A stretch of DNA of 64,000 nucleotides from assembly GCF_001046635.1 (NCBI RefSeq), contig NZ_KQ130453.1, positions 377,001 through 441,000 of the forward strand, in the 5' to 3' direction. Below, one piece after another: positions 38,610 through 64,000 of the stretch. A program made the position numbers and the translations under genes. Each line of letters starts with the position of its first letter. The stretch's first letter is position 1. The notes beneath the pieces were generated by a model, which was given only the letters and a program-made list of their open reading frames with translations, made no database searches and was not told the origin of the DNA. This DNA comes from Novosphingobium barchaimii LL02 (lineage in GTDB: Bacteria > Pseudomonadota > Alphaproteobacteria > Sphingomonadales > Sphingomonadaceae).

Positions 38610-40475
38610 TCACTGAATCCAGCGCGGCTGAGTTTTCGCGGTCACTTCCGTAACAGGGCGGTCGAGGTCGGCGCCGTGTTTCGGGTCCTTCGCCGTATCG
38701 GGGTCTACGAAGCCGTAGAAGACACCTTGCGAAAGCGAGGCGCCTCGCTGTTCTACATCGCCGATCACTTGCGCGGTACCGGACAGCACGATGCCTTTCT
38801 CGTACTCACCGATGGCCAGCATCGAGGTGCGCGCGGCGGCGGCGTCTCGCAGGACGGTGTCACCGCGCAGCACGGTCAGGCCTGCCACCACGGCATTGTC
38901 CTGCACCCGCGCCCGGTCGAGAACGACGGCGTGGTCCTCGATCCGCGCCTTCCCGGTGACGGTGCCCGAGATCACACGCGCATAGGGACCGACATAAGCG
39001 CTGGCGGCCACCTGCGCGTTCGGTCCGACCCAGCCGCCGCCGTTCGCGTGACGATGGCCGCCGGGGATCGCCGCGGGCGCGCCGGGCTGGTAGCGTTCGG
39101 GCATGGCGCCCTCGAACTGAGCCATCCACGGGTAGCGGTAGATCGAATACCAGGGTTGGTCCCAGCGAATCTGCTGCATCTGCGACGGCGCCGCCATGAC
39201 CATAAGGAACAGCCCGGTGTCGCCTGGCTGCAAGGCGATCGAGGCTTCGGCCTTGGCGCCGCGTTGCAGCGGGGCGTAGCGGCTCTTGCCGTCCGCGCCT
39301 ACTGCCACGAGGCCCCAGCGCCAGTCCGATGACGGCGGGGGGATCGTGGAAGGCTCGTCGGCGAGGCCGGGTAAGGAGGCAGCGGCGCTGGCCTGCTGCA
39401 CCATGCCTCGGAACGTCACGGTTACGCGGCTGCTGCCCGCATCGGGATAGAGCTTGACCATGTTGTATCCCCAGCGCTGCGGCGCCCACATCCCGGGGAC
39501 GGCGAAGCGCCGTTTGGGCAGGTCAATGGGATCCAGCACCGTGGCGGAGAGGATGCCGGCGTCGGTGGTCTGGTGGTATGTGCCGTAGTTCTTGCGGAAG
39601 ACGGCGCCCTGGTCCGAGCCGTCCGGGTTGGTGTAATCCCAGTTGGCGTTGTGCAACGCCCAGTCGCCGAAGGCGTCATTGAGCTGTGACTGGCTCCAGC
39701 CCATGTTCTGCTTCAGGACGCTGATCGGATCGGCGGTAAGGTGCGAGGGGTCGGCGGTGCCGGGCGCCTTGCGCCAGATGTCGTTGATCGCCTCGAAACC
39801 GTGCTTGTCCTTGATGTATTCCAGGAACTGCCAGTTGCAGTAGCGCGATCGCGTCGAGCCGTAATAGAGGTGCGGGTACTGCTTGAGCAGGACCGAGCAA
39901 TGGGTGTTCTCGCGGAATTCCGGCAGCTGGACGGTCATCCAGTTGGCGTGGCTCTCGAACAGCCAGCCGGTGAAGGGCGAGTCCATGAGGTGGCCGGTGG
40001 CGGCCTGCAGGGCGTGGGTCAGTTCATGCGCCAGCCCGAAACGGTCTCTCAACGCGCCGGGGCCGATCCACATGCCCATATGGCCGAGTTGATCGGTGCC
40101 GCCGGTCAGCCCGTAATCGACTCCGATATAGGCGTTGACCTTGAACTTCGTGGCGGAGCCGCAGTGGGGTTCGGGGAAGTGCAGGGTGCCAATGAAATAG
40201 TCCCACACATATTCGAGGTGTTTCACCGCGCCTTGCGCATCCGCCTGGGTGACGGTGCCCGGCTTCCAGTGCAGCGCGAAATGGGCGCTCTGCATCTGCA
40301 GAGGCAGGGCGGAGTTGACCGCGTCGGAAGGGTCGGTGTCCGCCACGGCCCATGGTCCGGCCATGCAGGCTTGGTCGGAGGGGGCAGCGGGGGCCTCAGG
40401 CACCGGTACGGCGATCGCCGTGCCGGGTAGGACGGGGAGCAGCGCCAGCGCCGATGCCTGAAGGAGGGCCTTCAT
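38610..40475 (-). CDS. Secreted DUF6055/Svx-like HExxH protein with hexapeptide-repeat tail
   Basis: A 621-residue exported protein. After a signal peptide (MKALLQASALALLPVLPGTAIA), an N-terminal domain holds a zinc-protease motif, AHELTHALQ (His150, Glu151, His154). ESHANW about 20 residues on may supply a third ligand. This fits the DUF6055 family that includes the plant-pathogen secreted factors Svx/AvrXca, as I recall. The C-terminal part (about 495-590) shows left-handed beta-helix-type repeats: WVGPNAQVAASAYVGPYARV, ISGTVTGKARIEDHAVVL and so on. It is the last gene of a leftward S9-DUF5695-DUF6055 unit behind the 45709 operator. A role in cutting plant cell-wall protein is inferred. Confidence 0.75.
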   Translation of the reverse strand: MKALLQASALALLPVLPGTAIAVPVPEAPAAPSDQACMAGPWAVADTDPSDAVNSALPLQMQSAHFALHWKPGTVTQADAQGAVKHLEYVWDYFIGTLHFPEPHCGSATKFKVNAYIGVDYGLTGGTDQLGHMGMWIGPGALRDRFGLAHELTHALQAATGHLMDSPFTGWLFESHANWMTVQLPEFRENTHCSVLLKQYPHLYYGSTRSRYCNWQFLEYIKDKHGFEAINDIWRKAPGTADPSHLTADPISVLKQNMGWSQSQLNDAFGDWALHNANWDYTNPDGSDQGAVFRKNYGTYHQTTDAGILSATVLDPIDLPKRRFAVPGMWAPQRWGYNMVKLYPDAGSSRVTVTFRGMVQQASAAASLPGLADEPSTIPPPSSDWRWGLVAVGADGKSRYAPLQRGAKAEASIALQPGDTGLFLMVMAAPSQMQQIRWDQPWYSIYRYPWMAQFEGAMPERYQPGAPAAIPGGHRHANGGGWVGPNAQVAASAYVGPYARVISGTVTGKARIEDHAVVLDRARVQDNAVVAGLTVLRGDTVLRDAAAARTSMLAIGEYEKGIVLSGTAQVIGDVEQRGASLSQGVFYGFVDPDTAKDPKHGADLDRPVTEVTAKTQPRWIQ

Positions 40476-40476
40476 G

Positions 40477-43233
40477 TCAGCGCGGGCTGAGCGTGACGGT
40501 GGTGACGCCGCCTGTCAGCGGGATCGCATAGCCGCCGCGATCCGCCGTGCCGGTTTGCGTGGTGTAGGCGCGGGCGCCCTGCGTGGTGGTTTCGAACAGC
40601 AGCCGCGCGGTTGGCGCGGTATCGCTGGCGGGGTCGAGGGTTAGCACGACCTTGCCGGTCTTCGTATCGTACTGCGCGCTCTGGATGCGGCCCGCCTCGA
40701 GCGTGATCCACAGGCCTGCGGGAGCCACGAACAGACGGCGGCGAGCGCCGTCCTTCGGGGCCATGGTAATTTGCGAACCCTTGGTCTTGAGGTCTCCGCC
40801 AAAGCCCAGCCAGCCCAGCTGCGCATCGTTGACCATGTAGCTGGCCGAGGTGATCGCATGGCCGTAGAAGCCCATGCCGTAATCTCCGGTGATGACGTCC
40901 CACTTCATCATGTCTGGCCAGGAATGGAACGCGGCCGAGCCGAAGCCTTCCTGATCGATGTTGGTCACGCCGCCCATCATGCCGCCGTAGGCCACCCGCA
41001 GCAGGTGCAGGTCGGTTGGGTTCTGGCGATAGGCGTCGAACAGCGGAACGGCGTTCAGCGCCGAGCCGTAGTGGTGGATCTGGCGCTCGATGCGCGAGAC
41101 CTTGCCGCCGTACAGGAAGTCCCAGTAGCGGCGGGCATTGCCGTTGTAGCCCCAGCTGGGGATCGTGGGGTCATAGCCCAGGATTACTTCGCGGGTCACG
41201 TCTGCCTGCGGCTGGTAGTTGAAATAGCGCATCCACGCATAGACTTCCGGCTGGCCGGTGGAATCCCATGCCATCTCGCTGCCGAAGGGGAATTTCAGCG
41301 TGCGCCAGTGATCGGCGCGGCCTTTCATCAGGCCTTCCATCTTGGTGGCTTCGGCGGTCAGGCCCTCGCGCTTGAGGTCCTTGAGGATGTCGAGGAAGAT
41401 GTCCCCCTCCATCTGTCCGAACTGTGCGTAATAAGGCGCATCGCGCATCATCGCCGCAGAGGTACGATAGGCCCACTCAAGGTAGAACTTCCAGTCGTGC
41501 TGCTTGACCAGCCCCTGGTTGTCGCGCGCAAGGCGGTAGAGCACCCAGTGCCCGATCGCTACGTGGGGATAGTTGTAAGACCGGCCCAGATCGTCCGAAT
41601 CCTTCTTCGACCATGCGGTCCAGTTCTTCCAGTTGATCTTGGGGTCGTAGTAGTCCGGGAATTCCTTGGGGTCGTAGTAGAACAGGCTTTTCTTGACCGC
41701 GCCGGCCTGCGGACCTTCGGCGACCTGGAGGTGGCCGATGACGGTCTCGTTGACGAGGCGTTCCAGTTTGGCGACTTCCTCGGCATTCGGGTTGTCGAGC
41801 TGCTTGATGGCGGCTGCCACCCACGATCCTGCGCCGCCTTCGTCGCTCATGCCCGAAACCCAGACGCGGCCGTCCTGCGTCAGGATCTTGTTGTCCTCGC
41901 GGTCGTAGGACAGGATCGCGGGGGAGCGATGGAACGGATCGTCCTTACCTTCGAACCACTGCTTCGTGGTGGTGAAGTTGCCGATATCGGCCATGACCTG
42001 ATCGAGCGGCTTGGTGATGTAATAGCTCACCGTCTGCTTCTGGCCGTCGGCATAAGTGACGGTCAGGCGGGCCTGGCCCCAGCCGCTGGCCTTCACTTGA
42101 TAGCGCGCCCAGCCGTTCCCGGCCTTTTCGGTGGTCGCGGTCAGCGCGCCCAGCGGGAAGGACTCGATCTTCGCGACTTTGCTTGGCGTCTTGAGGAAGA
42201 GGCTGGCGGTCTGGTCGGTGGGGACCACGTAGCCGGGAATGCCGACTGCGACGGGGCGCTTGTTGGCGACTAGCGTGTCCTCGATCGCACGCACGCTGGG
42301 CGATGTCACGAAGCGCAGGCCGATTGTGCGGCTTTCGCCGGGGGCCAGGGTGATGCTGGTCGCCTCGTTCCACTGCTGGCCGGCCTTGGCCCATTCCTTC
42401 TCGGCAAAGCCCTTGCTGGCGACGGTCCAGTCGTAGAAACCCTCGGACACCTGCGTGCGCGGGCTGCGGTCGGTGAAGATATCGTCCTTGGGCGCGGCGC
42501 GCTTTTCCAGAACCGGGCGATAGGCTTCGAGAGGGGTGCCCGTTTCGGGCAGGACCAGCAGCGCCGGGCCTTGCCCGTTCAGGCGGGTGACCTGAAGGTA
42601 GCCTGCATCACGGCCGATGTACGGGTCGACGAAGCTGGCCTGCGCGTGCGCCTGGTCCAGATCGCGGTCGAGGATGATGTTGTCGAACACCATCGGCATG
42701 CCTAGGCCGCCGATCTCGACGGCAGCATCGGAGGTGTTGACCAGCGTGAAGCGCATCGCCAGCACGCCATGGTCGTTGACCCAGCGGCGCTCCACGCGCA
42801 GCGGCACCGAACTACCCATCGAGGCGGTGATGTCGGCAGCGGCAAGCACGTCGGCGCCGGCTGGAAGTGCGGTGATCTGCTTGCGCGCATGAGCGGAGGA
42901 GAAGTCCTGCCACTCGGACCCGGCAGTCTTCAGACGAATGTGGATGTCGCCGATGTGGACATAGCCATCGCCTGCGCGCTCTGCCTCGCGCGATGCGGGC
43001 ACAAAGTCGAATGCGGCGTCGCCGGTAGGGGAAAGGTGGGCAAGGGTCTGGGTGTCGGCGCGCAGGGCAAGGTCGAATGTCGGCGTTTTCATGGCCGTAG
43101 TCTGGATCGGCGCGAATACCGGCTTGGGCTTTTCGGCGCCGTCTTCGGCTTGGGCTGCAGTCATCGGCAGCATGGCCGGAACAGCGGCCAGCATCAATGC
43201 GACAAGGGGCAAGGGCTTCAGGAGACGCTTCAT
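40477..43233 (-). CDS. DUF5695-like secreted protein, probable carbohydrate-active enzyme
   Basis: A 918-residue exported protein. The signal peptide is MKRLLKPLPLVALMLAAVPAMLPMTAAQA. The N-terminal 350 residues are beta-rich, and residues about 450-800 look like an alpha/alpha toroid, with repeated Trp/Tyr-rich helices (WKNWTAWSKKDSDDLGRSYNYPHVAIGHWVLYRL, YAWMRYFNYQP). A beta C-terminal domain follows. This resembles DUF5695 proteins of glycan loci, whose activity is not known to me. The ATG at 43233 is chosen over a frame start at 43248 because the signal peptide begins there. It lies between a peptidase and an HExxH protein in one unit, with two bases to the next gene. Confidence 0.7.
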   Translation of the reverse strand: MKRLLKPLPLVALMLAAVPAMLPMTAAQAEDGAEKPKPVFAPIQTTAMKTPTFDLALRADTQTLAHLSPTGDAAFDFVPASREAERAGDGYVHIGDIHIRLKTAGSEWQDFSSAHARKQITALPAGADVLAAADITASMGSSVPLRVERRWVNDHGVLAMRFTLVNTSDAAVEIGGLGMPMVFDNIILDRDLDQAHAQASFVDPYIGRDAGYLQVTRLNGQGPALLVLPETGTPLEAYRPVLEKRAAPKDDIFTDRSPRTQVSEGFYDWTVASKGFAEKEWAKAGQQWNEATSITLAPGESRTIGLRFVTSPSVRAIEDTLVANKRPVAVGIPGYVVPTDQTASLFLKTPSKVAKIESFPLGALTATTEKAGNGWARYQVKASGWGQARLTVTYADGQKQTVSYYITKPLDQVMADIGNFTTTKQWFEGKDDPFHRSPAILSYDREDNKILTQDGRVWVSGMSDEGGAGSWVAAAIKQLDNPNAEEVAKLERLVNETVIGHLQVAEGPQAGAVKKSLFYYDPKEFPDYYDPKINWKNWTAWSKKDSDDLGRSYNYPHVAIGHWVLYRLARDNQGLVKQHDWKFYLEWAYRTSAAMMRDAPYYAQFGQMEGDIFLDILKDLKREGLTAEATKMEGLMKGRADHWRTLKFPFGSEMAWDSTGQPEVYAWMRYFNYQPQADVTREVILGYDPTIPSWGYNGNARRYWDFLYGGKVSRIERQIHHYGSALNAVPLFDAYRQNPTDLHLLRVAYGGMMGGVTNIDQEGFGSAAFHSWPDMMKWDVITGDYGMGFYGHAITSASYMVNDAQLGWLGFGGDLKTKGSQITMAPKDGARRRLFVAPAGLWITLEAGRIQSAQYDTKTGKVVLTLDPASDTAPTARLLFETTTQGARAYTTQTGTADRGGYAIPLTGGVTTVTLSPR

Positions 43234-43256
43234 TTCAGATCCTCGCACGCAAGATT

Positions 43257-45635
43257 TTACTGGGCCGCGGCGGCGGCAGGCTTGGCGGGTGTCACCGGGC
43301 CAAGCGGGGGCGGGGTTTCGCCCAGAAGGTATTGGGTGAAGTAGTCGCGCTGCTTCTTGAAGAAGAACGGCTGGTTCACCCGGTGGGTGGTATTGGGCAG
43401 CACGACGAGATCGACATCGCGACCGGCATCCATCAGCGCCTTGGCGAGGCGGAAGCTTTCCGTCACCGGCACGTTGTCGTCGATATCGCCGTGAATCAGC
43501 AGCAGGTGGCCCTTGAGCTGGCTCGCCACCGACATGTTGGAATTACGTTCCCAGGTCGCCTCGTCCGGGTTGCCCATCGACACTTCGGGCCACCAGGTCT
43601 TGTCCAGCCTGAGGTCATGATTGCCCGAGGACGATACGCCGACCTTGAAGAAGTCCGGTCGCCGCAGCACGAAGCGCGCGGTGTCATAGCCGCCCGCCGA
43701 ACCGCCGAACACGCCGACGCGGTTGACGTCCATGTAGGGGTACTTCGCGGCCATCTGGCGGATCAGGGCGATGTGATCGTCCAATCCGACTTCGCCCAGA
43801 TTCTGGAAAGCGGGAAGGCGAAAGGCCTGTCCGCGCCGCGATGTGCCGGTGCCGTCGATCATGACCACGATGGCACCGATCTGGGCAAGGCTGTTGCCGC
43901 TCACGCGCCGGGCATCGGACCATGTGGCGGGCACATCGGTAGTCGTCGGGCCGGTGTAGACGTTGTCTATGACCGGATAGGTGCGCTTCGGGTCGAAGTT
44001 TGCGGGGCGCAGGATCATGCCGTAGATCGGCGTCTTGCCGTCTGCCGCCAGGCCTTTGAAAGGCTCGGGCGCAGTGAAGCCCTTGGCCATCAGGCGGCTG
44101 TCATCGGCCTTGGCCAGCTCCATGACGATCCTCCCCGTGCGGCCGTCGCGCAGGACGGCACGGGTGGGCGAGACGGGGCTGGACATCTGATCGACGATCC
44201 ACTTGCCATCGGGCGATACCTTGGCATCGTGATCGAGCGGTTCGGGCGTCAGTTCGGTAAGGGCTCCCGCTTTGGTCGGTACTCGGTACAGCGCCCGCCA
44301 GTAGGGATTGCGCTCTGCCTCGCGGCCCACGCCGGTCACCACAAGCGCGGACTTGTCCTCGTCGATGTGGTCGACGGAAAGCACTTCCCATGCCCCCTGC
44401 GTCAGTGCGGTGCCGCCGTCAGGCGCGTCGGGGCTCACCAGGTAAAGCTGCGCCCAGCCGCTCCGCTCGGAGATCGACAGTTCGCCGCCAAGCTCAGGCG
44501 AGGGTATTATCATGCTGGAAGTCACCGTGATCACCGGCTTGACCGCCTCATGCGCGGCGATGCGGGCGGCGCCGGTTGCGGGATCGGCGATGTAGACGGC
44601 TTGCTGCTTGTAGCCGCGCTCGGTCCAGAGCATCCGGGGTTTGCCGTCCACCCAGCCCATGTCGGGCTCGGCAGGGTAAAGCAGCGATTCAGTCGGCATC
44701 TGGATCTGTACCAGCTTGGCTTTGCGCGCTTTCATCGCCGCGCGCATGTCAATGACGAAGCGGGTCGCCTGCGGCAACTTTTCGGCCCCTGCCAACGGAT
44801 AGACGTAGGAAAAGCTGCGCGGATAGAAGCTGCCCGGCGGGTTCTGCTGGGTGATCGAAAGCTTCTTCACCTCGCGCGTGTCGAGCCGCCAGCTGAGCAG
44901 GTAGCGGCCATCAGGCGACCACTGGGCCGACACCGGCATTGCCGGCTCTTCGGTGCCTTCCCGCAGGATGTCAGACAATTCGGGGATCGAGCGGCCATAG
45001 GGCTGTTCGCGCGTCCCATCGGTGGTCAGCGGCACTTCACGTCCGCTGTCAACATCGACGGCTATCAGGTTGAAATCACGCGCGATGATCTTTGTCTTGC
45101 CATCGGGAGAAAGCAGATCAAATTCGCGGTGGCCCGCTTCCTCGATCTGCGTGGCCTTGCCGCCCGCATCGACGCTCCACAGGGCTCCGTCGAAGGCGTG
45201 GAACTTCAATTCCTCCTTGGCCGGATCGTAATCGACGTCCGTAATCTTTGCTTCGTCGATCGTCACGGCCTTGCCCTTGGCGGCAGACAGTGCGGCGAGG
45301 AGGTTGGCGGTCGTCGTCACCTGCCGCGTTTCGCGCGTCTTGAGGTCGAGCAATTGGTAGCGTTGGTCGAGGCGGTTGCCGGTGCGATAGAACAGCCCTC
45401 CCTCGACAAAGCGCGGGGCGATGTCTGCATTGTCGATGAGGTCGCCAAGCGCATTTCCCAGAAAGGCGTCGGCAGTGGCATAGCGCCGGGCGATGCTGGG
45501 CTGCGAAGGCGCCGCGACCGTGCGAGCAGTTGCCGCATGGGCGGCGGGTAGCGCTCCGGGGGTTATCCCAAGGCTGGCCCACGCGAACGCAAACAAGCTG
45601 ACGGAACGGGACATGCGGGAAAGTGGTGCGCTCAC
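43257..45635 (-). CDS. S9 prolyl-oligopeptidase/dipeptidyl-peptidase IV-like enzyme
   Basis: A 792-residue exported serine peptidase. A signal peptide (SVSLFAFAWASLGITPGALPAAHA) precedes a beta-propeller domain (about 45-520) and a C-terminal alpha/beta hydrolase domain. The nucleophile is the Ser in GGSAGGYD, the Asp lies in HGDIDDNVP and the His in NTTHRVNQP. S9 enzymes cut after proline (or alanine), which suits proline- and hydroxyproline-rich substrates. The GTG at 45635 is the outermost start; ATG 45614 is an alternative and neither has a strong ribosome site. It is the first gene of a leftward unit, divergent from the FCD regulator across a shared operator. Confidence 0.85.
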   Translation of the reverse strand: MSAPLSRMSRSVSLFAFAWASLGITPGALPAAHAATARTVAAPSQPSIARRYATADAFLGNALGDLIDNADIAPRFVEGGLFYRTGNRLDQRYQLLDLKTRETRQVTTTANLLAALSAAKGKAVTIDEAKITDVDYDPAKEELKFHAFDGALWSVDAGGKATQIEEAGHREFDLLSPDGKTKIIARDFNLIAVDVDSGREVPLTTDGTREQPYGRSIPELSDILREGTEEPAMPVSAQWSPDGRYLLSWRLDTREVKKLSITQQNPPGSFYPRSFSYVYPLAGAEKLPQATRFVIDMRAAMKARKAKLVQIQMPTESLLYPAEPDMGWVDGKPRMLWTERGYKQQAVYIADPATGAARIAAHEAVKPVITVTSSMIIPSPELGGELSISERSGWAQLYLVSPDAPDGGTALTQGAWEVLSVDHIDEDKSALVVTGVGREAERNPYWRALYRVPTKAGALTELTPEPLDHDAKVSPDGKWIVDQMSSPVSPTRAVLRDGRTGRIVMELAKADDSRLMAKGFTAPEPFKGLAADGKTPIYGMILRPANFDPKRTYPVIDNVYTGPTTTDVPATWSDARRVSGNSLAQIGAIVVMIDGTGTSRRGQAFRLPAFQNLGEVGLDDHIALIRQMAAKYPYMDVNRVGVFGGSAGGYDTARFVLRRPDFFKVGVSSSGNHDLRLDKTWWPEVSMGNPDEATWERNSNMSVASQLKGHLLLIHGDIDDNVPVTESFRLAKALMDAGRDVDLVVLPNTTHRVNQPFFFKKQRDYFTQYLLGETPPPLGPVTPAKPAAAAAQ

Positions 45636-45708: not shown

Positions 45709-45721
45709 ATATACGATATAT
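45709..45721. promoter_or_regulatory. Operator copy 1 (TATACGATATA) between S9 peptidase and GntR genes
   Basis: ATATACGATATAT lies in the 160-base divergent region between the S9 peptidase unit and the FCD regulator. It shares the core TATACGATAT with copies at 46585, 53518, 56870 and 62942. Its position would allow one bound regulator to control both directions. Confidence 0.65.
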
Positions 45722-51792: not shown

Positions 51793-51796
51793 CGCG

Positions 51797-53528: not shown

Positions 53529-53580
53529 AAGTTAAGGTGTCAGATTAAAGGCGCCGGGGTATTCAAACAGGGGGTTTGTG

Positions 53581-56298: not shown

Positions 56299-56329
56299 TC
56301 GGATCGGCGCCTTTGCCAGCATGACCCCG

Positions 56330-56366
56330 ACAGCCGCGCCATTTCGATGGCGCGGCTGTTTTCGTT
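56330..56366 (+). terminator. Rho-independent terminator after the TBDR
   Basis: A perfect 13-bp stem (56330-56342 with 56347-56359) closed by a TTCG tetraloop is followed by TTTCGTTT. It lies 32 bases after the TBDR stop and ends that transcription unit. Confidence 0.9.
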
Positions 56367-56869: not shown

Positions 56870-56885
56870 ATATCGTATACGATAT
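56870..56885. promoter_or_regulatory. Operator copy 4, perfect 16-bp palindrome, before the deaminase gene
   Basis: ATATCGTATACGATAT is a perfect palindrome. TTGCCT (56853-56858) and TATACG (56876-56881) are 17 bases apart and fit a -35/-10 pair, so the operator covers the -10 box, a strong repressor position. It lies 31 bases before the ATG of the deaminase gene. Confidence 0.8.
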
Positions 56886-56915: not shown

Positions 56916-57830
56916 ATGGCAATCGGTTGGAAGGGTGTTTTCCCGGCAGTCACCACGCAGCTCCGCGCGGACCTGTCGATCGATATCGCGGACACCCAGC
57001 GCGTCGTCGACGATCTGATCCGTGACGGTGTGACCGGCGTGATCGCGCTCGGCACGGTGGGGGAAAACAACTCGCTGGAATACGACGAGAAGGTCCAGGT
57101 TCTCTCCGCCATCGTCGAAGTGGTGGATGGCCGCGTACCCGTCATCACCGGCGTTTCGGAATACGACACCCGCCGCGCGGTGCGCTATGCGCAGGCCGCT
57201 GAGAAGGCCGGCGCGGATGGCCTGATGCTGCTGCCGCCGATGGTCTACGTGCCCAAGGCGCATGAACTCGTCGCCCACTTCAAGGGCGTGGCGGAACAGA
57301 CCGGCCTGCCGATCATGCTTTACAACAACCCCCCGGCGTATCGCACCGTGATCGACCAGGAAGTGCTGACCCAGCTGATCGATGTGCCGAACATCGTCGC
57401 GGTCAAGGAATCGGCTCCCGATACGCGCCGCTTCACTGATTTCCGCAACGCCTTCGGCGATCGCTATGTCTTGTTCGCCGGTCTCGACGACGTGGCCCTC
57501 GAAGGCCTGTACCTGGGCGCGCAGGGCTGGGTTTCCGGCCTTACCAACGCTTTCCCCAAGGAATCGGTGGAGCTGGTTGCGGCGTTCGCGCGCGGCGATC
57601 ATGCCAAGGCCATGGAAATCTACCGCTGGTTCATGCCGCTGCTGCACCTCGATGCCGAGCACGACCTTGTCCAGTCCATCAAGCTGGCCGAAGAAGTGAT
57701 GGGCCGCGGTTCGGAGCGCGTCCTGCCTCCGCGCTATGTTCTGCAAGGCGAGCGCCGCGCCGAAGTGATCGCGATGGTCGAGAAGGCCGCCGCTACCCGC
57801 CCGGACCTGTCCGTCGCAAAGGCAGCCTGA
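56916..57830 (+). CDS. DHDPS-family lyase, probable 1-pyrroline-4-hydroxy-2-carboxylate deaminase
   Basis: A 304-residue TIM-barrel of the dihydrodipicolinate synthase/N-acetylneuraminate lyase family. The Schiff-base Lys164 is in IVAVKESAPD, Tyr136 in LYNNPP and the substrate loop in GTVGENNSL. Next to a 4-hydroxyproline epimerase and a D-amino-acid oxidase, the best fit is the deaminase that turns 1-pyrroline-4-hydroxy-2-carboxylate into 2-oxoglutarate semialdehyde. Another DHDPS-fold option is L-2-keto-3-deoxyarabonate dehydratase, which makes the same product from arabinose, an attractive link given the arabinosidases. It starts after a palindromic operator and is 10 bases before the epimerase gene. 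Confidence 0.82.
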   Translation: MAIGWKGVFPAVTTQLRADLSIDIADTQRVVDDLIRDGVTGVIALGTVGENNSLEYDEKVQVLSAIVEVVDGRVPVITGVSEYDTRRAVRYAQAAEKAGADGLMLLPPMVYVPKAHELVAHFKGVAEQTGLPIMLYNNPPAYRTVIDQEVLTQLIDVPNIVAVKESAPDTRRFTDFRNAFGDRYVLFAGLDDVALEGLYLGAQGWVSGLTNAFPKESVELVAAFARGDHAKAMEIYRWFMPLLHLDAEHDLVQSIKLAEEVMGRGSERVLPPRYVLQGERRAEVIAMVEKAAATRPDLSVAKAA

Positions 57831-57840
57831 AGGAGCATCG

Positions 57841-58839
57841 ATGCGGCACACATTCTTCTGCATCGACGGTCACACAGCCGGTAACCCCGTCCGCTTGATT
57901 GCGGGCGGGGTTCCGCTGTTGAAGGGCGCGTCCATGTCCGAGCGGCGCCAGGATTTCCTGGAGCGTTTCGACTGGATCCGCACTGGCCTGTGCTTCGAAC
58001 CGCGCGGCCATGACATGATGTCGGGCGGCTTCCTCTATCCGCCGACCGATGCCGCGAACGACATCGGCATTCTGTTCATCGAGACCAGCGGCTGCCTGCC
58101 CATGTGCGGCCACGGCACCATCGGCATCGTCACTTTCGGTCTGGAGCACGGGCTGATCCAGCCCGCCACGCCGGGCCGCCTGCGCGTGGAAGTGCCGGCG
58201 GGCGTGATCGAGATCGCCTATGAAACCGAAGGGCCAAAGGTCACTTCGGTGCGCATCACCAACGTCCCCGCCTATGTCGCCGCACGCGGCATCGAGGTGG
58301 ACGTGGAGGGTATCGGACCGCTTTCGATCGACGTGTCCTATGGCGGCAACTACTATGCCATCGTCGAGCCGCAGGGCGCCTACACCGGCCTCGACGATCT
58401 CGGCGCAGCGCGGATAATCGACCTGAGCGGGCGTGTCCGCGAGGCGGTTCGGGCGAAGTTCGAGCCGGTTCATCCGCTGGACCCCACGATCCGGGGCGTC
58501 AGCCATGTGCTTTGGGCGGATAAGCCCCGGCATGAGGGCGCCGATGGCCGCAATGCCGTGTTCTACGGCGACAAGGCGATCGACCGCAGCCCTTGCGGCA
58601 CCGGCACCTCGGCGCGTCTGGCGCATCTGGCGGCGTCTGGACGGTTGTCCGTCGGCGACAGCTTCGTGCACGAAAGCTACATCTGCAGCCGCTTCATAGG
58701 CCGGGTCGAGAAGTCGGTCATGCTGGGCGACCAGCCGGCGATCATCCCCTCGATCGAGGGATCGGCGATCGCTACCGGTTTCAATACCATCTGGATCGAC
58801 AAGGCCGATACCTTCTGGGAAGGCTTCCAGGTCACGTGA
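57841..58839 (+). CDS. 4-hydroxyproline epimerase (proline racemase family)
   Basis: A 332-residue cytoplasmic proline racemase-fold enzyme. The two catalytic Cys are Cys89 in PMCGHGTIG and Cys252 in RSPCGTGTSAR, the arrangement of hydroxyproline 2-epimerases; trans-3-hydroxyproline dehydratases have Thr at the second site. CIDGHTAGNP at the N-terminus also fits. It converts trans-4-hydroxy-L-proline into cis-4-hydroxy-D-proline for the FAD oxidase encoded at 62980. It lies 10 bases after the deaminase gene behind an AAGGAGC site, so both are read from the 56870 promoter. Confidence 0.9.
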   Translation: MRHTFFCIDGHTAGNPVRLIAGGVPLLKGASMSERRQDFLERFDWIRTGLCFEPRGHDMMSGGFLYPPTDAANDIGILFIETSGCLPMCGHGTIGIVTFGLEHGLIQPATPGRLRVEVPAGVIEIAYETEGPKVTSVRITNVPAYVAARGIEVDVEGIGPLSIDVSYGGNYYAIVEPQGAYTGLDDLGAARIIDLSGRVREAVRAKFEPVHPLDPTIRGVSHVLWADKPRHEGADGRNAVFYGDKAIDRSPCGTGTSARLAHLAASGRLSVGDSFVHESYICSRFIGRVEKSVMLGDQPAIIPSIEGSAIATGFNTIWIDKADTFWEGFQVT

Positions 58840-58916: not shown

Positions 58917-58997
58917 CCCGCTCAGCCTGAGCTTGTCGAAGGCCCCCGAGACTGGGCGCCCCATTTCGGGGCCTTCGACAAGCTCAGGCTGAGCGGG
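58917..58997. repeat. Perfect 30-bp inverted repeat, REP/BIME-like
   Basis: The arms 58917-58946 and 58968-58997 are exact reverse complements, 21 bases apart. The word CAGCCTGAGCTTGTCGAAGG is a sequence I recall as common between genes in sphingomonads and other proteobacteria. It lies between the converging epimerase and GH27 genes, so it may also act as a bidirectional transcription stop. Confidence 0.85.
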
Positions 58998-59048: not shown

Positions 59049-60566
59049 TCAGTCTCCCACGACGACCATCACCGCGCCGCGCGCCGGGACGGTGTAGCTG
59101 GCAGGCAGTTTGGCGGACTTGGTGCCGCTCCACACGTCCTGGACCTGCGTTACCGCCGTCAGCCCGGCATCGCCCGGCACAAGCGCCAGCGAACTCGCCG
59201 CATCGCCCCGGTTGAACAACGCGAGCGCGACCCGGCCATCGGCCAGGGGTTTGGCCCAGACTTCCATCGTGCCGTGTTTACGCAGCGCCTTGGCCTGCAC
59301 TCCCTTTGCGTCCTGATCGACAGCGATCACGCGTGGGTTGGTGAGCATGGCGAGCGTCTCGGGCGTGGATTCCCGCAGGTCATGGCCCATCATCAGCGGC
59401 GCGGCGGACATCGCCCATAGCGTCATGTGCGTGCGGTATTCGTCCGCGCTCATGCCGCCGTTGCCGATTTCGAGCATGTCGGGGTCATTGAAGCCGTGCG
59501 GACCGGCCCACTCGGGTTTGCCGTTTTTGTCAAAGCCGATTTTCGCCATTGTCGGATAATCGTCGGTGATGTCGCCGGTGGTGCGCCAGAGCTGACCGCC
59601 GACGTCGCGGCCCCAAGATCCCACGTCGAAGCGCCCATATTCACACAGCGAGAAGATGAAATCGCGCCCCGTCGCCTGAAGCGCGGCGCCCATTTCGTAG
59701 TAGCTGCGCTTTACCGTGGCGGCTTCGTCGTAGAACCATTCACCCGAACACAAATCGTACTTGAGGTAGTCGAAGCCCCAGTCCGCATACGTCTGGGCGT
59801 CCTGCATTACATGGCCATAGCTGCCCTCATACCCTGCGCAGGTGCGCGGCCCCTGCGAGGAATAGATGCCGATCTTCAGTCCCCTGGAATGGACATAGTC
59901 GGTCAGCGCCTTCATGTCCGGGAACTTCTCGTTGGGTTGCAGCACGCCGTCTGCGCCGCGCTTGCCCTGCCAGCCATCGTCAATGTTGACGTAAAGGTAG
60001 CCGGCATCGCGCAGGCCCGTGGAAACCATCGCATCGGCCATGGCGCGCACGGTCTTGTCGTCGATATGCTCGGCGAACTTGTTCCAGCTGCTCCAGCCCA
60101 TCGGCGGGGTGGCCGCCAGCTTGCTCGGGATCGGCGCACCAAGCGCTGGCAGCGGAGGCGAAAACTTGAAGGCGCGGGCTCGGGCGTCCTTCGTGTTGCC
60201 GCGATAGCCGGATGCATCGACTTCGGATTCCCAGATGCGGCCCTTGAGGTGGGCCTTGCCACCTTCGATGGCGACGCTCCAGGGGCGGGTGGGGTGCTCG
60301 CGGTCGTTGATGTTGCGGGTGTCGAATTTCAACGCGCCGTCCTCGACACGCGGGTTCAGCATTTCGACGGGTCCGTACCACTGCGTGGTCACGGTGCCCT
60401 CTATCTTGCCGCCTTTCGAGGTGACCTGCATCATCGTCACGCCGGGCGTGGGCGGGGCTTCATCGAAGAGCCAGACGCCATCGTAGGCGGTTTTGGCCAG
60501 AGCAGGAGCAGCCAGCGACAGGCTGGTTCCCAAAAGTACGGCAGCGGTGAAAAGGGCGCGGGGCAT
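59049..60566 (-). CDS. GH27 alpha-galactosidase (or beta-L-arabinopyranosidase)
   Basis: A 505-residue exported glycosidase. The signal peptide is MPRALFTAAVLLGTSLSLAAPALA. An N-terminal beta-rich domain of about 110 residues (DGVWLFDEAPP to FKFSPP) precedes a GH27 barrel with PPMGWSSWNKF, NIDDGWQG, the nucleophile Asp in YLKYDLC, and the acid Asp in the segment after NDPDMLEIGNGGMSADEY. A beta C-terminal domain ends the protein. The ATG at 60566 follows AAGGAGATC; the frame runs further up into the permease gap. It is downstream of the GntR and permease genes in one leftward unit. In extensin, Ser carries alpha-galactose, a fitting target; arabinopyranose in arabinogalactan protein is another. 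Confidence 0.87.
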   Translation of the reverse strand: MPRALFTAAVLLGTSLSLAAPALAKTAYDGVWLFDEAPPTPGVTMMQVTSKGGKIEGTVTTQWYGPVEMLNPRVEDGALKFDTRNINDREHPTRPWSVAIEGGKAHLKGRIWESEVDASGYRGNTKDARARAFKFSPPLPALGAPIPSKLAATPPMGWSSWNKFAEHIDDKTVRAMADAMVSTGLRDAGYLYVNIDDGWQGKRGADGVLQPNEKFPDMKALTDYVHSRGLKIGIYSSQGPRTCAGYEGSYGHVMQDAQTYADWGFDYLKYDLCSGEWFYDEAATVKRSYYEMGAALQATGRDFIFSLCEYGRFDVGSWGRDVGGQLWRTTGDITDDYPTMAKIGFDKNGKPEWAGPHGFNDPDMLEIGNGGMSADEYRTHMTLWAMSAAPLMMGHDLRESTPETLAMLTNPRVIAVDQDAKGVQAKALRKHGTMEVWAKPLADGRVALALFNRGDAASSLALVPGDAGLTAVTQVQDVWSGTKSAKLPASYTVPARGAVMVVVGD

Positions 60567-60621: not shown

Positions 60622-62043
60622 TCAGGCGGCGGCGTTCGCTGCTTCGCGCCCGGCATCGCTGCGGCTCCGGCCGTAGAGGTAGTAGACCAGCAGGCCGATG
60701 ACGTTCCATGCCCCGAAGCGCACCAGCGTGGAGGCGGGCAGGCTGAACAGCAGGTAGGCGCAGCCAAGGATCGTCAGGGTGCCCACCAGGTACGGTTTGG
60801 GGCAACGGAACAGGCGCGGCAGTTCGGGCATACGGCGGCGCAGGATCATCAGGCACGCCCCGACCGAGATAAAGGCGATCAGCGTACCGGCATTGGCCAG
60901 TTCGGCGATCTCGTCGAGACGGAAGATACCGGCGACTATGGCGATCGAGATGCCCGTCATCAGCGTGATGCGGGTGGGCGCACCGGTGCGGGGGCTGATC
61001 TTGGCAAGGCTGCGCGGCAGCAGGCCATCGCGCGCCATGACGAAGAACACGCGGCTCTGGCCGTACATCATCACCAGGATGACGGAGGGCAGGGCCAGCA
61101 CGGCGGCAAGGGCGATCAGATGCGCGGCAACCGGCTGCCCAAGCTGGCGCAGCACGAGAGCCAGCGGCTCAGGCGAATTGGCAAGCTGCTGGAAGGGCAG
61201 GGCGCCGATCGCGGCAAAGGCAACCGCCATGTAGATCACTGTGCAGACGACCATGGAGCCGACGATGCCGATGGTCAGGTCACGGCCCGGATTCTTGGCT
61301 TCCTCGGCCGAAGTCGCCACGGCGTCGAAGCCGTAGAACGCGAAGAACACGATGGCGGCGGCGGCCATGACGCCGCGCTGCTCACCGCCAACCTCGGTGC
61401 TGACGAAGCCGTAGGGCATGAAAGGTTCGAGGTTGCCGGACTGGAATGCCGGCATCGCCATGGCCACGAACACCGAAAGCGCGACGAGCTTGATGATGAC
61501 CAGCACGATGTTCAGGGTGGCGCTTTCGCGCGTACCGGCGATCAACATGCCCATCACTGCTAGGGCAACGCCCACGGCGGGCAGGTTGACGATGCCGCCG
61601 CCGTGCGGGCCAACCAGCAGCGCATGAGGCAGGTGGACCCCCGCCGACTGTATCCACCCGACCAGATAACCCGACCAGCCGACCGCCACGGTGGAGCAGG
61701 CCAGCGAATATTCGAGGATCAGGCTCCAGCCCACGATCCAGGCGATTGTCTCGCCCATGGCGGCATAGCTGAAGGTATAGGCGCTGCCTGCCGCCGGGAT
61801 CATCGTGGCCATTTCGGCATAGGCGAGGGCGGCGCAGGCGCAGACAGCGCCGGCGATCGCAAAGGCCAGGATCACGGCGGGGCCTGCACGATCGGCGCCC
61901 ACGCCGGTCAGCGTATAAATGCCGGTGCCGACGATGGCGCCCACGCCCAAGGCGATCAGGTGCGGCCAGCTCAGGGTCTTGGCAAGGGAGTGCCCGGATT
62001 CGCGTTTCAGCAACGAGTCTATGGATTTACGCGGTCCGAGCAT
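60622..62043 (-). CDS. APC-family amino-acid permease, possible hydroxyproline importer
   Basis: A 473-residue inner-membrane transporter of the amino acid-polyamine-organocation superfamily, cationic amino-acid transporter-like branch. It has about 12 membrane segments, with the substrate motif GVGAIVGTGIYTLTG in the first segment and EEAKNPGRDLTIGI in the loop after segment six. Between a GntR gene and GH27 in a locus with hydroxyproline enzymes, it most likely brings in hydroxyproline or proline. It begins 21 bases after the GntR stop (GGGGGAACC before the ATG) and precedes GH27 by 55 bases. Substrate assignment is by context only. Confidence 0.85.
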   Translation of the reverse strand: MLGPRKSIDSLLKRESGHSLAKTLSWPHLIALGVGAIVGTGIYTLTGVGADRAGPAVILAFAIAGAVCACAALAYAEMATMIPAAGSAYTFSYAAMGETIAWIVGWSLILEYSLACSTVAVGWSGYLVGWIQSAGVHLPHALLVGPHGGGIVNLPAVGVALAVMGMLIAGTRESATLNIVLVIIKLVALSVFVAMAMPAFQSGNLEPFMPYGFVSTEVGGEQRGVMAAAAIVFFAFYGFDAVATSAEEAKNPGRDLTIGIVGSMVVCTVIYMAVAFAAIGALPFQQLANSPEPLALVLRQLGQPVAAHLIALAAVLALPSVILVMMYGQSRVFFVMARDGLLPRSLAKISPRTGAPTRITLMTGISIAIVAGIFRLDEIAELANAGTLIAFISVGACLMILRRRMPELPRLFRCPKPYLVGTLTILGCAYLLFSLPASTLVRFGAWNVIGLLVYYLYGRSRSDAGREAANAAA

Positions 62044-62064
62044 GGTTCCCCCTGAAAATGTGGA

Positions 62065-62721
62065 TCAGCCGGTCTGGCTGGCGGCGAAATGAGCGCGCAG
62101 GTCGTCGAGCGTGCTGGCGATGTGCTGGGTGAGCAGACCCTTCACCTTGTCCGCCTCTCCGGCGAGCCAGGCGTCGAGCAGGTCACGGTGTTCGGAATGC
62201 GCGCGGTCGCCGCGCCCCGCAGGTTCGAGATGCGCGATCACGTAGCGTTCGGCGAGAACCTCGAGCCGTTCGACGTGCTGGGTGGTCAGCAGGCGCTTAC
62301 CGGGCCGCACCAGCGCAACGTGGAATTCCCGGTTGCGTAGGCCGACATTGGCAAGATCGCCGCGCGCCGCCTCATCGAGCCGTTCGAAGGCGGCCACGGC
62401 GGCCTCCTTGTCGGCCTCGTCGGCGTGGCGGCAGGCATAGGCGACGGCCGCCGGTTCGATGGCCAGGCGAAGGAGGTAGATTTCCTCGGCCTGATCGCTC
62501 GACATCGGGCGGACGAACCAGCCGCGATTGGCCTGACTGGTCAGCAGGCCCTCATGCTCGAGGCGGGTCAGCGCCTCGCGCAGGGGAATCTTGCTGACGC
62601 CTAACTCCGCTGCAAGCGCGTCCTGGCGGACCGGCTCCATTACGGGAAGTTTACCTTCGACGATCCTTTCGCGGATCACGTCAAAAATCCGTTCTGCAAG
62701 CGTGCGGACGACGATCGTCAC
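62065..62721 (-). CDS. FCD-type GntR regulator 2 of the hydroxyproline locus
   Basis: A 218-residue FCD GntR regulator. The helix-turn-helix region is PVRQDALAAELGVSKIPLREALTRLEHEGLLTSQANRGWFV (about residues 30-70). The FCD domain shows LLRLAIEPAAVAYACRHAD, REFHVALVRPG and SEHRDLLDAWLAGEADK, with the His residues used for metal or ligand. GTG 62721 follows ATGGAG at good distance; TTG 62724 is the alternative. It heads the leftward unit GntR-permease-GH27, with an operator-like copy 50 bases upstream. Regulators next to hydroxyproline epimerases and oxidases in proteobacteria are often of this type. Whether it or the paralogue at 45794 binds the shared palindrome is unknown. Confidence 0.87.
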   Translation of the reverse strand: MTIVVRTLAERIFDVIRERIVEGKLPVMEPVRQDALAAELGVSKIPLREALTRLEHEGLLTSQANRGWFVRPMSSDQAEEIYLLRLAIEPAAVAYACRHADEADKEAAVAAFERLDEAARGDLANVGLRNREFHVALVRPGKRLLTTQHVERLEVLAERYVIAHLEPAGRGDRAHSEHRDLLDAWLAGEADKVKGLLTQHIASTLDDLRAHFAASQTG

Positions 62722-62769
62722 CAATATATCTCCATATCGAAAGCAACCGTGTGAAACCCGGCCTCACTA

Positions 62770-62781
62770 ACGTATACGGTA
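62770..62781. promoter_or_regulatory. Operator copy 5 (ACGTATACGGTA) before GntR regulator 2
   Basis: ACGTATACGGTA lies about 50 bases upstream of the regulator start and reads TACCGTATACGT on its strand. It matches the TACCGTATACG of copy 6 across the same divergent region, so both directions could be controlled by one protein. Confidence 0.6.
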
Positions 62782-62941
62782 GATGATCCTGAATGCCCCT
62801 GCAATCCGCGCCTCGTTTTCAGAGCCCACGAACTCATCGCCACGCGAATAGTGTCCCGATAAGGGCAACTTTTCTGAAGGCGGGTGAAGCCTGGGGTCAT
62901 TGAGGATGCGGAGCCTTGTATCAGCGATGATCGGTGTATAT

Positions 62942-62955
62942 ACCGTATACGATAT
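62942..62955. promoter_or_regulatory. Operator copy 6 (ACCGTATACGATAT) before the FAD oxidase
   Basis: ACCGTATACGATAT lies 25 bases before the GTG start of the oxidase gene, within an AT-rich segment. It shares GTATACGATAT exactly with copies 2, 3 and 4, so the oxidase belongs to the same proposed regulon. Confidence 0.7.
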
Positions 62956-62979
62956 CTCGTTCATTGCAACGGAGTTTTT

Positions 62980-64000
62980 GTGGGACTAATCGGGATCGTC
63001 GGCGGCGGGGTGGTCGGCCTGTGTACCGGCATCGAATTGCTGGAGGCGGGAGAGCGCGTGGCGATCATCGACAACGATGCCGCCGCGCAGGCCCCATCCT
63101 GGGGCAACGCCGGGCACATCGCGGTCGAGCAGGTAGAGCCGCTGGCCTCGATGAACACGGTGCGCACAATGCCCAGGCGTCTGTTCATGCGCGGCGGCGC
63201 AGTGGGCCTGCCGCCTCTGTCGCTGCCTGCATGGTTACCGTTTGGACTGCGCCTGCTGGCGGCGGCCCGTCCCGAGCGCTTTCGTAGCGGCTGCGCGGCG
63301 CTGGGACCGCTGCTGGATCGGTCAATGCCGGCGTGGGAATCCATGGCGACGCGCATCGGCGCGCCGGAATTGCTGCGGCAGGATGGGCATTTCGTGGTGT
63401 GGCACGGCGATGATGCCGCCAGTGCCGGACGCGCTTCCTGGGAAATGGCTCGTACCGGCACGGCACAAGTCCGCAGCGCGACGCCGGATGAGCGCGACAT
63501 GCTTGCTGCCCTCGGCAATCGACGTGTAGCCGGAGCGATCCGCTTTTCAGGCAGCGGGCAGATCGCCGATCTCGGCGCCCTGCGTGCTGCCCTGCGCGCA
63601 GCTTTCATCGGGCGCGGCGGCACGATCCACGAGGCATCCGCTGCGCTTGGCCTGAACCATGGACGCGCCGAAATCGCGGGGCTGGACGCGGAGCGGGTGA
63701 TCGTGTGTGCGGGGGTACACTCGCGGGCTCTAATGGAAGCGTTAGGCCATAAGGTGCCGATGATCGCCGAGCGCGGCTACCACGTCCGCGCCGAAGCCTC
63801 AGGCTGGCCGGAGGATCTGCCGCCGGTGGTGTTCGAAGAGCGTTCGATGATCGTGACCCGCTATGGGCCGACCGTGCAGGCGGCCAGCTTCGTGGAATTC
63901 AGCCGGCTCGATGCGCCGGCCGATCCGCGCAAATGGGAACGCCTCGAACACCATGTCGCGCAGCTTGGTTTGCCGATTTCCGGGCCGTTCCGCCGGTGGA
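62980..64000 (+). CDS. FAD-dependent D-amino-acid/D-hydroxyproline dehydrogenase (5' part, cut by window end)
   Basis: An open frame starts at GTG 62980, five bases after a GGAG site, and runs unbroken to the end of the window (340 codons). The N-terminus GIVGGGVVGLCTGIELLEAGERVAIID is a dinucleotide-binding fold ending in the acidic residue that holds FAD ribose. APSWGNAGHIA follows, as in DadA-like D-amino-acid dehydrogenases. Next to a 4-hydroxyproline epimerase it should oxidise cis-4-hydroxy-D-proline to 1-pyrroline-4-hydroxy-2-carboxylate, the substrate of the lyase at 56916. It is divergent from GntR regulator 2 and has its own operator copy. About 80 C-terminal residues are probably missing. 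Confidence 0.85.
   Translation, partial: MGLIGIVGGGVVGLCTGIELLEAGERVAIIDNDAAAQAPSWGNAGHIAVEQVEPLASMNTVRTMPRRLFMRGGAVGLPPLSLPAWLPFGLRLLAAARPERFRSGCAALGPLLDRSMPAWESMATRIGAPELLRQDGHFVVWHGDDAASAGRASWEMARTGTAQVRSATPDERDMLAALGNRRVAGAIRFSGSGQIADLGALRAALRAAFIGRGGTIHEASAALGLNHGRAEIAGLDAERVIVCAGVHSRALMEALGHKVPMIAERGYHVRAEASGWPEDLPPVVFEERSMIVTRYGPTVQAASFVEFSRLDAPADPRKWERLEHHVAQLGLPISGPFRRW

Follow-up and report, generated by a model that had tools for sequence, protein, structure and literature searches.

We analyzed a 64,000-nucleotide stretch of the genome of Novosphingobium barchaimii LL02 (contig NZ_KQ130453.1; the window, below, is this whole stretch) and found that its region 38610-64000 is probably a locus for the utilization of plant hydroxyproline-rich glycoproteins, that is, extensins and/or arabinogalactan proteins. 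The predicted joining of glycan removal to hydroxyproline (Hyp) catabolism in one regulon is well supported by sequence, and extensin and/or arabinogalactan protein is the best inference for the food. The original prediction had placed deglycosylation, proteolysis and Hyp catabolism in a single regulon. It gained support from four sides, because the genes co-occur in relatives, an operator is common to them across genera, this operator is kept in a Novosphingobium genome where the locus is scattered, and the linkage is found again in a second phylum. The gene families, their conserved linkage and the common operator are direct observations. Some soil- and plant-associated bacteria appear to strip the sugars from Hyp-rich wall proteins, cut the protein and burn the Hyp, the genes for sugar removal and for Hyp use being under one DNA switch. 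If true, this mode of growth on plant cell walls would be one that has been little described. Plant walls contain extensins and arabinogalactan proteins as major proteins, there are few accounts of how leaf and soil bacteria use them, and the locus offers genes that can be tested as a set, together with a predicted operator and inducer.

Gene Content of the Region

Profile searches of the window proteins with Pfam and NCBIfam models recovered all the enzyme families previously named, lying in one contiguous region as had been claimed. A DUF5695 protein, an Ldh_2 domain fused in frame to DUF885 and two GntR/FCD regulators (GntR 1 and GntR 2) were absent from that earlier list. The features are:

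38610-40475, minus strand: Svx/AvrXca-family metallopeptidase (DUF6055); NF040510 and DUF6055 profiles, signal-peptide-like N-terminus, hexapeptide (acyltransferase-like) C-terminal part
40477-43248, minus: DUF5695 protein; export-signal-like N-terminus, PL27-like fold (beta-sandwich plus (alpha/alpha) barrel)
43257-45635, minus: S9 dipeptidyl-peptidase-4-like peptidase; Pfam DPPIV_N and Peptidase_S9
45709-45718, plus: operator half-site ATATACGATA, one mismatch to GTATACGATA, between the divergent S9 and GntR 1 genes
about 45794-46531, plus: GntR/FCD regulator 1; profile match, start codon picked by eye
46580-46595, plus: operator ATAACGTATACGATAT, one mismatch, preceding the beta-arabinofuranosidase
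46616-48973, plus: GH146-like beta-L-arabinofuranosidase with C-terminal DUF6805; Pfam GH127_cat, 390 bits
48970-51792, plus: Ldh_2 (pyrroline-2-carboxylate-reductase-like) domain in frame with a DUF885 peptidase-like domain; Pfam, 312 and 494 bits
51782-53353, plus: GH43 glycosidase (alpha-arabinofuranosidase or xylosidase), export-signal-like N-terminus; Pfam GH43 5e-31, start uncertain (51758-51797)
53513-53528, plus: operator AAGAAGTATACGATAT before the TonB receptor; perfect half-site at 53518-53527, full site with four mismatches
53578-56298, plus: TonB-dependent receptor (TonB-Xanth-Caul subfamily); TIGR01782, 522 bits
56329-56360, plus: terminator-like 14-pair stem, then T-rich tail, 3' of the receptor gene; consensus match only
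56870-56885, plus: operator, perfect palindrome ATATCGTATACGATAT, before the DHDPS-epimerase unit
56916-57830, plus: DHDPS-family lyase, probable pyrroline-4-hydroxy-2-carboxylate deaminase; Pfam DHDPS, 198 bits
57841-58839, plus: 4-hydroxyproline 2-epimerase; NF010578, 532 bits against a cut-off of 376
about 59049-60566, minus: GH27 alpha-galactosidase; Melibiase_2, 218 bits, start picked by eye
60622-62043, minus: APC amino-acid permease; AA_permease_2, 192 bits
62065-62724, minus: GntR/FCD regulator 2; profile match, adjoining the oxidase and permease genes
62768-62784, minus: second, weaker operator-like site before GntR 2; one-mismatch half-sites on both strands
62940-62955, plus: operator ATACCGTATACGATAT, one mismatch, before the oxidase
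62980-64000, plus: FAD-dependent oxidase of the D-amino-acid oxidase family (DAO), probable D-Hyp oxidase; Pfam DAO 8e-30, start by eye, running past the window end

The genes for S9, DUF5695 and Svx follow one another in this order, S9 being first, and are 8 and 1 bp apart. Terminator-like sites number 11 in the stretch and 12.1 in shuffles, so the stem at 56329-56360 is a mere consensus match. The closest relative found was Novosphingobium sp. 18050 (locus L001, genome G001), whose arabinofuranosidase is 97% identical and whose gene order from Svx to the oxidase is the same as in the window.

A Common Operator

At one mismatch or fewer, the half-site GTATACGATA matched the two strands of the window 11 times, at 7 places, where 0.38 matches were expected, and none of 100 shuffles reached 11; one of the places (19572) falls outside 38610-64000. 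The 16-base palindrome ATATCGTATACGATAT occurs three times in the window at up to three mismatches (0.05 expected; 0/100 shuffles reach 3), preceding the arabinofuranosidase gene, the DHDPS-epimerase unit and the oxidase gene. Half-sites are also present upstream of the TonB receptor and of GntR 2 and in the stretch that separates S9 from GntR 1; the full site of the receptor has four mismatches in L001, as in the window. These counts against shuffles bear out the shared operator copies of the original prediction.

We then compared related loci, the best 80 of 176 as selected by the arabinofuranosidase, counting a gene as present at 45% identity or more within 10 kb and an operator when it had up to four mismatches and lay no more than 350 bp upstream, for which chance gives 0.04 sites per gene. 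The operator was found upstream of the arabinofuranosidase in 69 of the 80 loci, of DHDPS in 43/46, of the TonB receptor in 19/24 and of the oxidase in 14/19. Taken together, 145 of these 169 promoters carry it; with shuffled palindromes (up to 60) the mean was 2.4 and the maximum 53, a value reached by one of them. It was rare or absent before GH43 (0/42), Ldh_2 (0/60), DUF885 (0/67) and the epimerase (2/35), which, as for the low counts at Svx, GH27 and the APC permease given below, is expected if these genes are transcribed from upstream promoters. Intermediate counts for S9 (13/28), DUF5695 (22/57) and GntR 1 (7/22) are not independent, since these genes share divergent intergenic stretches with the arabinofuranosidase or with each other.

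In the 5.3-Mb genome G001, all four sites with up to two mismatches fall on contig C17, at 35379-62756, within 28 kb of this locus; three mismatches added ten more (14 in total), and a reversed control pattern gave one in all. The locus is scattered in another Novosphingobium genome, G002, where 6 of 9 sites at up to three mismatches precede regulon orthologues, at six places on three contigs. Four of them lie upstream of the arabinofuranosidase, of the TonB receptor, of the DHDPS-epimerase unit and of the oxidase-M24 unit, the last being divergent from GntR 2, permease and GH27. The other two precede orthologues of genes that come next in G001, the second S9 and the second TonB receptor. The seventh G002 site lies between two divergent genes, one for a distant TonB receptor (29%), which it precedes, and one for a DUF5695 relative (26%). 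Site context was inspected for 7 of the 9 sites in G002 (C1:835554 and C4:233974 excepted), 6/12 in G154, 4/6 in G155 and 5/14 in G001.

A scan of further genomes (up to three mismatches; within 100 bp for the arabinofuranosidase; positions compared by eye) covered nine of those having both arabinofuranosidase and epimerase, all but G028 and G081. A site preceded the arabinofuranosidase gene in eight of them and lay about 1 kb before the epimerase in seven, a distance that corresponds to the DHDPS gene start in the loci examined. Among genomes with the epimerase only, 5/6 had a site about 1 kb before it, and neither of the two with the arabinofuranosidase only had one at that gene. This distribution suggests that the operator follows the Hyp genes, and that in most of the cases observed the arabinofuranosidase has it when Hyp genes are present.

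As in HypR-type regulons, a GntR-family gene is linked to epimerase, oxidase and deaminase genes with a common putative operator, and GntR 2 is the best candidate for a Hyp-responsive repressor. GntR 1 was rejected as sole master regulator, being absent within 10 kb from 46 of the 69 loci whose arabinofuranosidase bears an operator; in 44 of the 69, GntR 2 is likewise absent.

Another operator-like site in G001 (C18:36163) stands before none of the genes compared. Both genomes have a pair of divergent genes with similar N-termini, near this position in G001 (L103) and at C3 590845-592874 in G002 (L097). The site lies between the genes of the first pair, and the second pair lies beside the regulon TonB receptor. 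They are possible further regulon members.

Co-occurrence of Glycosidase and Hyp Genes

In the 80 loci, the genes most often found with the arabinofuranosidase were DUF885 (68), Ldh_2 (60), DUF5695 (58), DHDPS (46), GH43 (42), epimerase (36) and GntR 2 (30), followed by S9 (28), TonB receptor (25), permease (23), GntR 1 (23) and oxidase (20). Of the 80 loci, 56 had one or more of the genes for epimerase, DHDPS, oxidase, permease and GntR 2, and 47 had epimerase or DHDPS. Other genes recurred as well: those of an M24 peptidase cluster in 18 loci, that of a POT-type peptide transporter in 10 and, in 12, that of an HExxH protein with no Pfam match. Proteolysis is the weakest part of the regulon claim, given that S9 occurs in the 28 loci just mentioned and Svx in 12.

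We also surveyed 149 genomes from the family of G001, which we take from the organism name of L001 to be Sphingomonadaceae (arabinofuranosidase at E 1e-50, with matches reaching down to 40% identity, in G028; epimerase at 70% identity or more). The arabinofuranosidase was found in 13, the epimerase in 17 (19 at E 1e-20) and both in 11. Thus the epimerase is present in 11/13 genomes with the arabinofuranosidase and in 6/136 without it (Fisher p 6e-11, uncorrected for relatedness). The two genes lie within 10 kb of each other in 9 of the 11 genomes and on different contigs in G028 and G081. DUF5695 occurs in six of the 149 genomes, all six with the arabinofuranosidase. The joint occurrence of glycosidase and Hyp genes in relatives, which had been put forward as a check, is therefore seen in both surveys.

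The glycosidase-Hyp linkage also exists in Acidobacteria, with distant Hyp genes. We surveyed 120 genomes from the family of G157 (Granulicella), presumably Acidobacteriaceae to judge from the organism name of L062 (arabinofuranosidase at E 1e-250, epimerase at E 1e-60). Five had the arabinofuranosidase and 35 the epimerase; all five of the former had both, 5.2 to 19.9 kb apart (p 0.0017, uncorrected for relatedness). In L062 and L069 the epimerase is 31-32% identical to that of the window, and the arabinofuranosidase 66%. A single stretch of Granulicella paludicola (L062) holds a complete cluster, with epimerase, FAD oxidase, DHDPS, aldehyde dehydrogenase, permease and GntR/FCD genes together with a GH127-type protein, arabinofuranosidase, DUF885, GH43 and S9.

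Hyp Catabolism

By its sequence, the protein encoded at 57841-58839 is a 4-hydroxyproline epimerase (HypE). Its catalytic pair (MCGH at 88, DRSPCGTG at 248) is Cys-Cys, not the Cys-Thr of trans-3-hydroxy-L-proline dehydratase, and is kept in all 27 full-length homologues listed. The sites that discriminate epimerases from racemases, placed by eye from an alignment to 6j7c, which we take to be TlProR, hold Ser in MMSGG, His in VSHVLW and Tyr in VFYG; site 5 is Tyr in 25 of the 27 listed homologues and Cys in two Acidobacterial ones. The Cys-Cys versus Cys-Thr rule separates epimerase from dehydratase, and HypE is further marked by the absence of Phe at site 1, by His at site 4 and, where proline racemase has Phe, by Cys or Tyr at site 5 (PMC4364671), which is the pattern found here.

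The DHDPS-type lyase has a Lys in AVKES at 162 and adjoins the epimerase in relatives. Both it and the oxidase score below the cut-offs of the specific NCBIfam models that they match, so the two functions were assigned by linkage: the lyase is the probable pyrroline-4-hydroxy-2-carboxylate deaminase and the DAO protein the probable D-Hyp oxidase.

The last enzyme of the pathway, a 2-oxoglutarate semialdehyde dehydrogenase, was to be looked for past position 64000 according to the original prediction. In G001, the nearest relative, none of the type searched lies past the oxidase, and a location just beyond 64000 is ruled out there by the genes that follow, namely an M24 peptidase (prolidase type), a second S9, a GH2 beta-galactosidase and a TonB receptor. 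One homologue (E 1e-60) was found instead on another contig (C24:40622), with AraD1-like, dihydroxy-acid-dehydratase-type and Gfo/Idh-type genes, two GH43, an alpha-L-arabinofuranosidase and a GntR/FCD gene of its own as neighbors. We read this gene set as a putative L-arabinose oxidation operon, other dehydrogenase families remaining candidates for the step. The cluster of this dehydrogenase has members in 4 of the 80 loci (L049, L051, L056, L062). On this reading arabinose and Hyp would converge on 2-oxoglutarate semialdehyde, and a single dehydrogenase may act for the two pathways. In G001 the regulator of the operon shares 54% identity with the relatives of GntR 1 found in L026 and L049. 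L-arabinose oxidation genes of the three types also lie within L026, L049, L051 and L060, near the arabinofuranosidase, with not every one of them in each locus.

Enzymes Acting on the Glycans

The original prediction had assigned the arabinofuranosidase to GH127. The Pfam GH127 catalytic domain, common to both families, is indeed present, but the nearest structures are of GH146: the best PDB chains were 5opj (1.5e-141), which we take to be BT0349, and 8k7x (3e-49), by its structure label presumably Bll3HypBA1, against 3e-30 for the best GH127-labeled chain (4qjy) and 7.5e-13 for 3wkw. A HypBA1-type identity was thus rejected, the HypBA1-type structures not being the closest. CEHC at 349 and WCC at 419 align with a Glu-Cys-Cys-Cys zinc site, which is that of the GH146 enzymes BT0349 and Bll3HypBA1 (PMC10850190). 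By chain E-values and zinc residues, as distinct from a tree, the enzyme appears closer to GH146 than to GH127, and GH146 members act on Araf-beta1-Hyp (PMC10850190).

The Pfam match confirms the GH43 family of the next glycosidase, but the name HypAA, given earlier as a known GH43 enzyme, cannot be applied, the nearest solved structure being 3qee, gly43N (3e-45). Residues 399-511 of the protein weakly match the HypBA2 model (2e-6). The GH27 protein is closest to the alpha-galactosidase 6f4c (5e-94).

For DUF5695, a name that occurs in a single paper of the open-licence PMC literature searched, the sequence alone had no match among PDB sequences up to E 1. Its PL27-like fold, with an N-terminal beta-sandwich and an (alpha/alpha) barrel, provides a structural clue. 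Identity to PL27 is 14%, a further C-terminal beta region extends beyond residue 802, and we do not class it as PL27; in the fold-match lists the absence of a family does not mean its exclusion.

Peptidases

The DUF6055 protein belongs, as judged by score and motifs, to the Svx/AvrXca family. NF040510 matches it with 841 bits (cut-off 625) over 588 of 601 positions and DUF6055 at 1e-96. The HExxH site claimed earlier is found as HELTH at residue 150, with ESHAN at 174. A Hexapep match at 482-507 is under the Pfam cut-off, so the acyltransferase-like C-terminal domain rests mainly on the full-length NF040510 match. Pectobacterium Svx was shown in 2026 to cut carrot extensin (PMC13164431), and an Svx relative recognizes the arabinans of extensin. 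The locus sets Svx, known as a plant-pathogen virulence factor, in a likely nutritional setting.

The S9 protein is closest to dipeptidyl aminopeptidase 4 (5yp1, 3e-46). At 48970-51792, the Ldh_2 domain is closest to delta1-piperideine-2-carboxylate reductase (1wtj, 1.3e-69), and the C-terminal DUF885 part, which has no HExxH string, to 3o0y (1e-64). The two domains share one stop-free frame in the window, L001-L005, L018 and L020, are split in the rest of the loci compared, where a stop or a change of frame intervenes, and are ambiguous in L006. An internal GTG, a Shine-Dalgarno-like AGGGGA and a signal-peptide-like stretch near the junction (about 50000) suggest that DUF885 may also be produced separately. 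The recurrent HExxH protein of related loci, of about 340 residues (L080:13925-14950 and 11 other loci), whose representative also has no NCBIfam match, is a possible new peptidase family.

Proposed Mechanism

We propose that exported GH146-like, GH43 and GH27 enzymes would strip beta- and alpha-arabinose and alpha-galactose, that DUF5695 would perhaps remove a capped uronic-acid structure, and that Svx, S9 and DUF885 would cleave the glycoprotein backbone. Fragments and imino acids would then be imported by the TonB receptor and the permease. Epimerase, oxidase and DHDPS-type deaminase would convert trans-4-hydroxy-L-proline to 2-oxoglutarate semialdehyde, to be oxidized to 2-oxoglutarate by the dehydrogenase encoded elsewhere, in the L-arabinose operon. 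A GntR/FCD repressor, most likely that of 62065-62724, would bind ATATCGTATACGATAT at several promoters and would probably be released by a Hyp-derived metabolite. The substrate, the effector, the binding regulator, the cell location and the exact bond cut by each enzyme are in this scheme those that we infer. Chances seem even that the whole class of loci, in Sphingomonadales, Caulobacter and, with distant Hyp genes, Acidobacteria, places glycan removal, proteolysis and imino-acid catabolism under a Hyp-sensing repressor, with DUF5695 as a new family of glycan-acting enzymes.

Comparison with Known Systems

The closest known systems are, in our judgment, HypR regulons that include collagenases, and what would be new is the extension of a Hyp regulon to the sugars and backbone of plant wall glycoproteins. 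In Proteobacteria, including Sinorhizobium meliloti, whose HypR is cited there, GntR-family regulators control Hyp epimerase, oxidase, deaminase and dehydrogenase genes, and some gammaproteobacterial HypR regulons add collagenases, proline peptidases, a di/tripeptide permease and a TonB receptor (PMC5343134). The likeness is one of gene content, a GntR-family gene standing with Hyp catabolism genes, whereas section 11 of that paper names no glycosidase, Svx or DUF5695 and the regulon here reaches enzymes for plant-glycoprotein sugars. In Streptomyces coelicolor, a single GntR repressor, HypR, joins a putative collagenase to Hyp catabolism (PMC6608401). Both systems combine Hyp use with an enzyme predicted to cut a macromolecule, collagen there and plant glycoprotein here, but the S. 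coelicolor motif, CTNTGC(A/C)ATGTCAC, differs from ATATCGTATACGATAT.

HypBA1, HypBA2 and HypAA of Bifidobacterium longum use the arabinose on Hyp-rich glycoproteins (PMC7263609), and XeHypBA1 of Xanthomonas and Bll4HypBA1 are GH146 enzymes for Hyp-linked arabinose (PMC10850190). A beta-arabinofuranosidase is common to these systems and ours; the parts of those accounts consulted cover sugar use, without a peptidase or Hyp catabolism. Within the window, where alone it was sought, no gene was assigned to GH121, the family of HypBA2. Pectobacterium Svx shares with the window protein the NCBIfam family, the HExxH site and the acyltransferase-like C-terminal part (PMC13164431; PMC9266454), but it is a virulence factor there, whereas here it stands beside S9 and DUF5695 in a catabolic locus. 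DUF5695 has its overall fold in common with BACCELL_00875, a PL27 L-rhamnose-alpha-1,4-D-glucuronate lyase (PMC8377490), and differs by its low identity and extra C-terminal region. Searches of open-licence PMC literature turned up no account of glycosidases, Svx or DUF5695 controlled through a Hyp-type operator, and no paper with hydroxyproline epimerase and arabinofuranosidase together; the former may be described elsewhere.

Alternative Explanations

Several observations weigh against the utilization of Hyp-rich glycoproteins by a single regulon. Svx and GH27 are each present in 12 of the 80 loci, and Svx in 1/149 genomes of the family. The operator was found before GH27 in 1/12, the APC permease in 1/22, Svx in 0/12 and GntR 2 in 0/27 loci, and for the last count we have no explanation. 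The operator-bearing loci without GntR 1 and those without GntR 2 nearby, counted above, add to these, as do the 24 loci that lack a Hyp-side gene within 10 kb. Phytopathogen Svx proteins form a separate clade (PMC9266454), so that the specificity of Svx in this locus may differ. The remaining points concern pectin. The GH43 is nearest to gly43N, which we take to be arabinan-specific, and relatives of the alpha-arabinofuranosidase/GH43 operon of G001 lie nearby, downstream, in 2 of the 80 loci (L024, L025). The closest solved relative of the arabinofuranosidase, 5opj, if BT0349, would point to pectic arabinan, BT0349 being an arabinan enzyme of a rhamnogalacturonan I (RG-I) locus (PMC10850190). 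Such likenesses favor the use of pectic arabinan (RG-I), in which arabinofuranosidase, GH43 and GH27 would trim pectin side chains and the Hyp genes would be neighbors or a side branch. We consider this improbable, as the arabinan-type operon and L-arabinose oxidation genes of G001 lie on another contig and have a separate GntR/FCD gene, as none of the genome's 14 operator sites falls among them, as arabinofuranosidase and Hyp genes both bear the operator, and as the Svx, S9 and M24 peptidases have no evident role in arabinan use.

A general regulon for scavenging Hyp and proline peptides, as from collagen, with glycosidases gained by chance, would agree with the collagenases and proline peptidases of the HypR regulons described above (PMC5343134; PMC6608401) and with the 6 of 17 epimerase genomes that have no arabinofuranosidase, five of which carry the operator about 1 kb before the epimerase. 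It is nevertheless unlikely, given the operator at the arabinofuranosidase in most loci and in 8/9 genomes with both genes, and the recurrence of the linkage in Acidobacteria. Collagen, moreover, is not known to carry arabinose. Gene order varies and 24 of the 80 loci have no Hyp-side gene within 10 kb, as might be expected from two independent loci set side by side by chance; but the operator is common even where the genes are scattered, and the co-occurrence in two families makes such a coincidence extremely improbable. More serious is the view that the target is arabinogalactan protein, including gum arabic, and not extensin, which is a variant of the utilization of Hyp-rich glycoproteins rather than its opposite. 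The fold of DUF5695 resembles that of the PL27 lyase active in uncapping gum arabic, a bifidobacterial GH146 acts on arabinogalactan protein (PMC10850190), and among the genes that come next in G001 there is a GH2 beta-galactosidase. Against it stand the extensin cleavage and arabinan recognition of an Svx relative, the mere 14% identity of DUF5695 to PL27, and the assignment of no window gene, the only ones considered, as an exo-beta-1,3-galactanase. We hold this restriction to be possible, with the balance somewhat against it.

Other Features of the Window

A small open reading frame (56400-56825) lies between the receptor and DHDPS genes, and a small protein family occupies a similar place in L012, L014, L015 and L018. 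Between the convergent epimerase and GH27 genes there is a perfect 30-base inverted repeat (58917-58946 / 58968-58997) with a 21-base spacer. Adjoining the Svx gene, 37403-38593 encodes a 396-residue protein with two TetR_N stretches, an unusual tandem regulator. Farther upstream, at 26294-32027, we found an alginate-type cluster, which we do not count in the Hyp/glycoprotein regulon, composed of a chondroitinase B-family protein, an oligoalginate lyase-like protein below the model cut-off and an MFS transporter.

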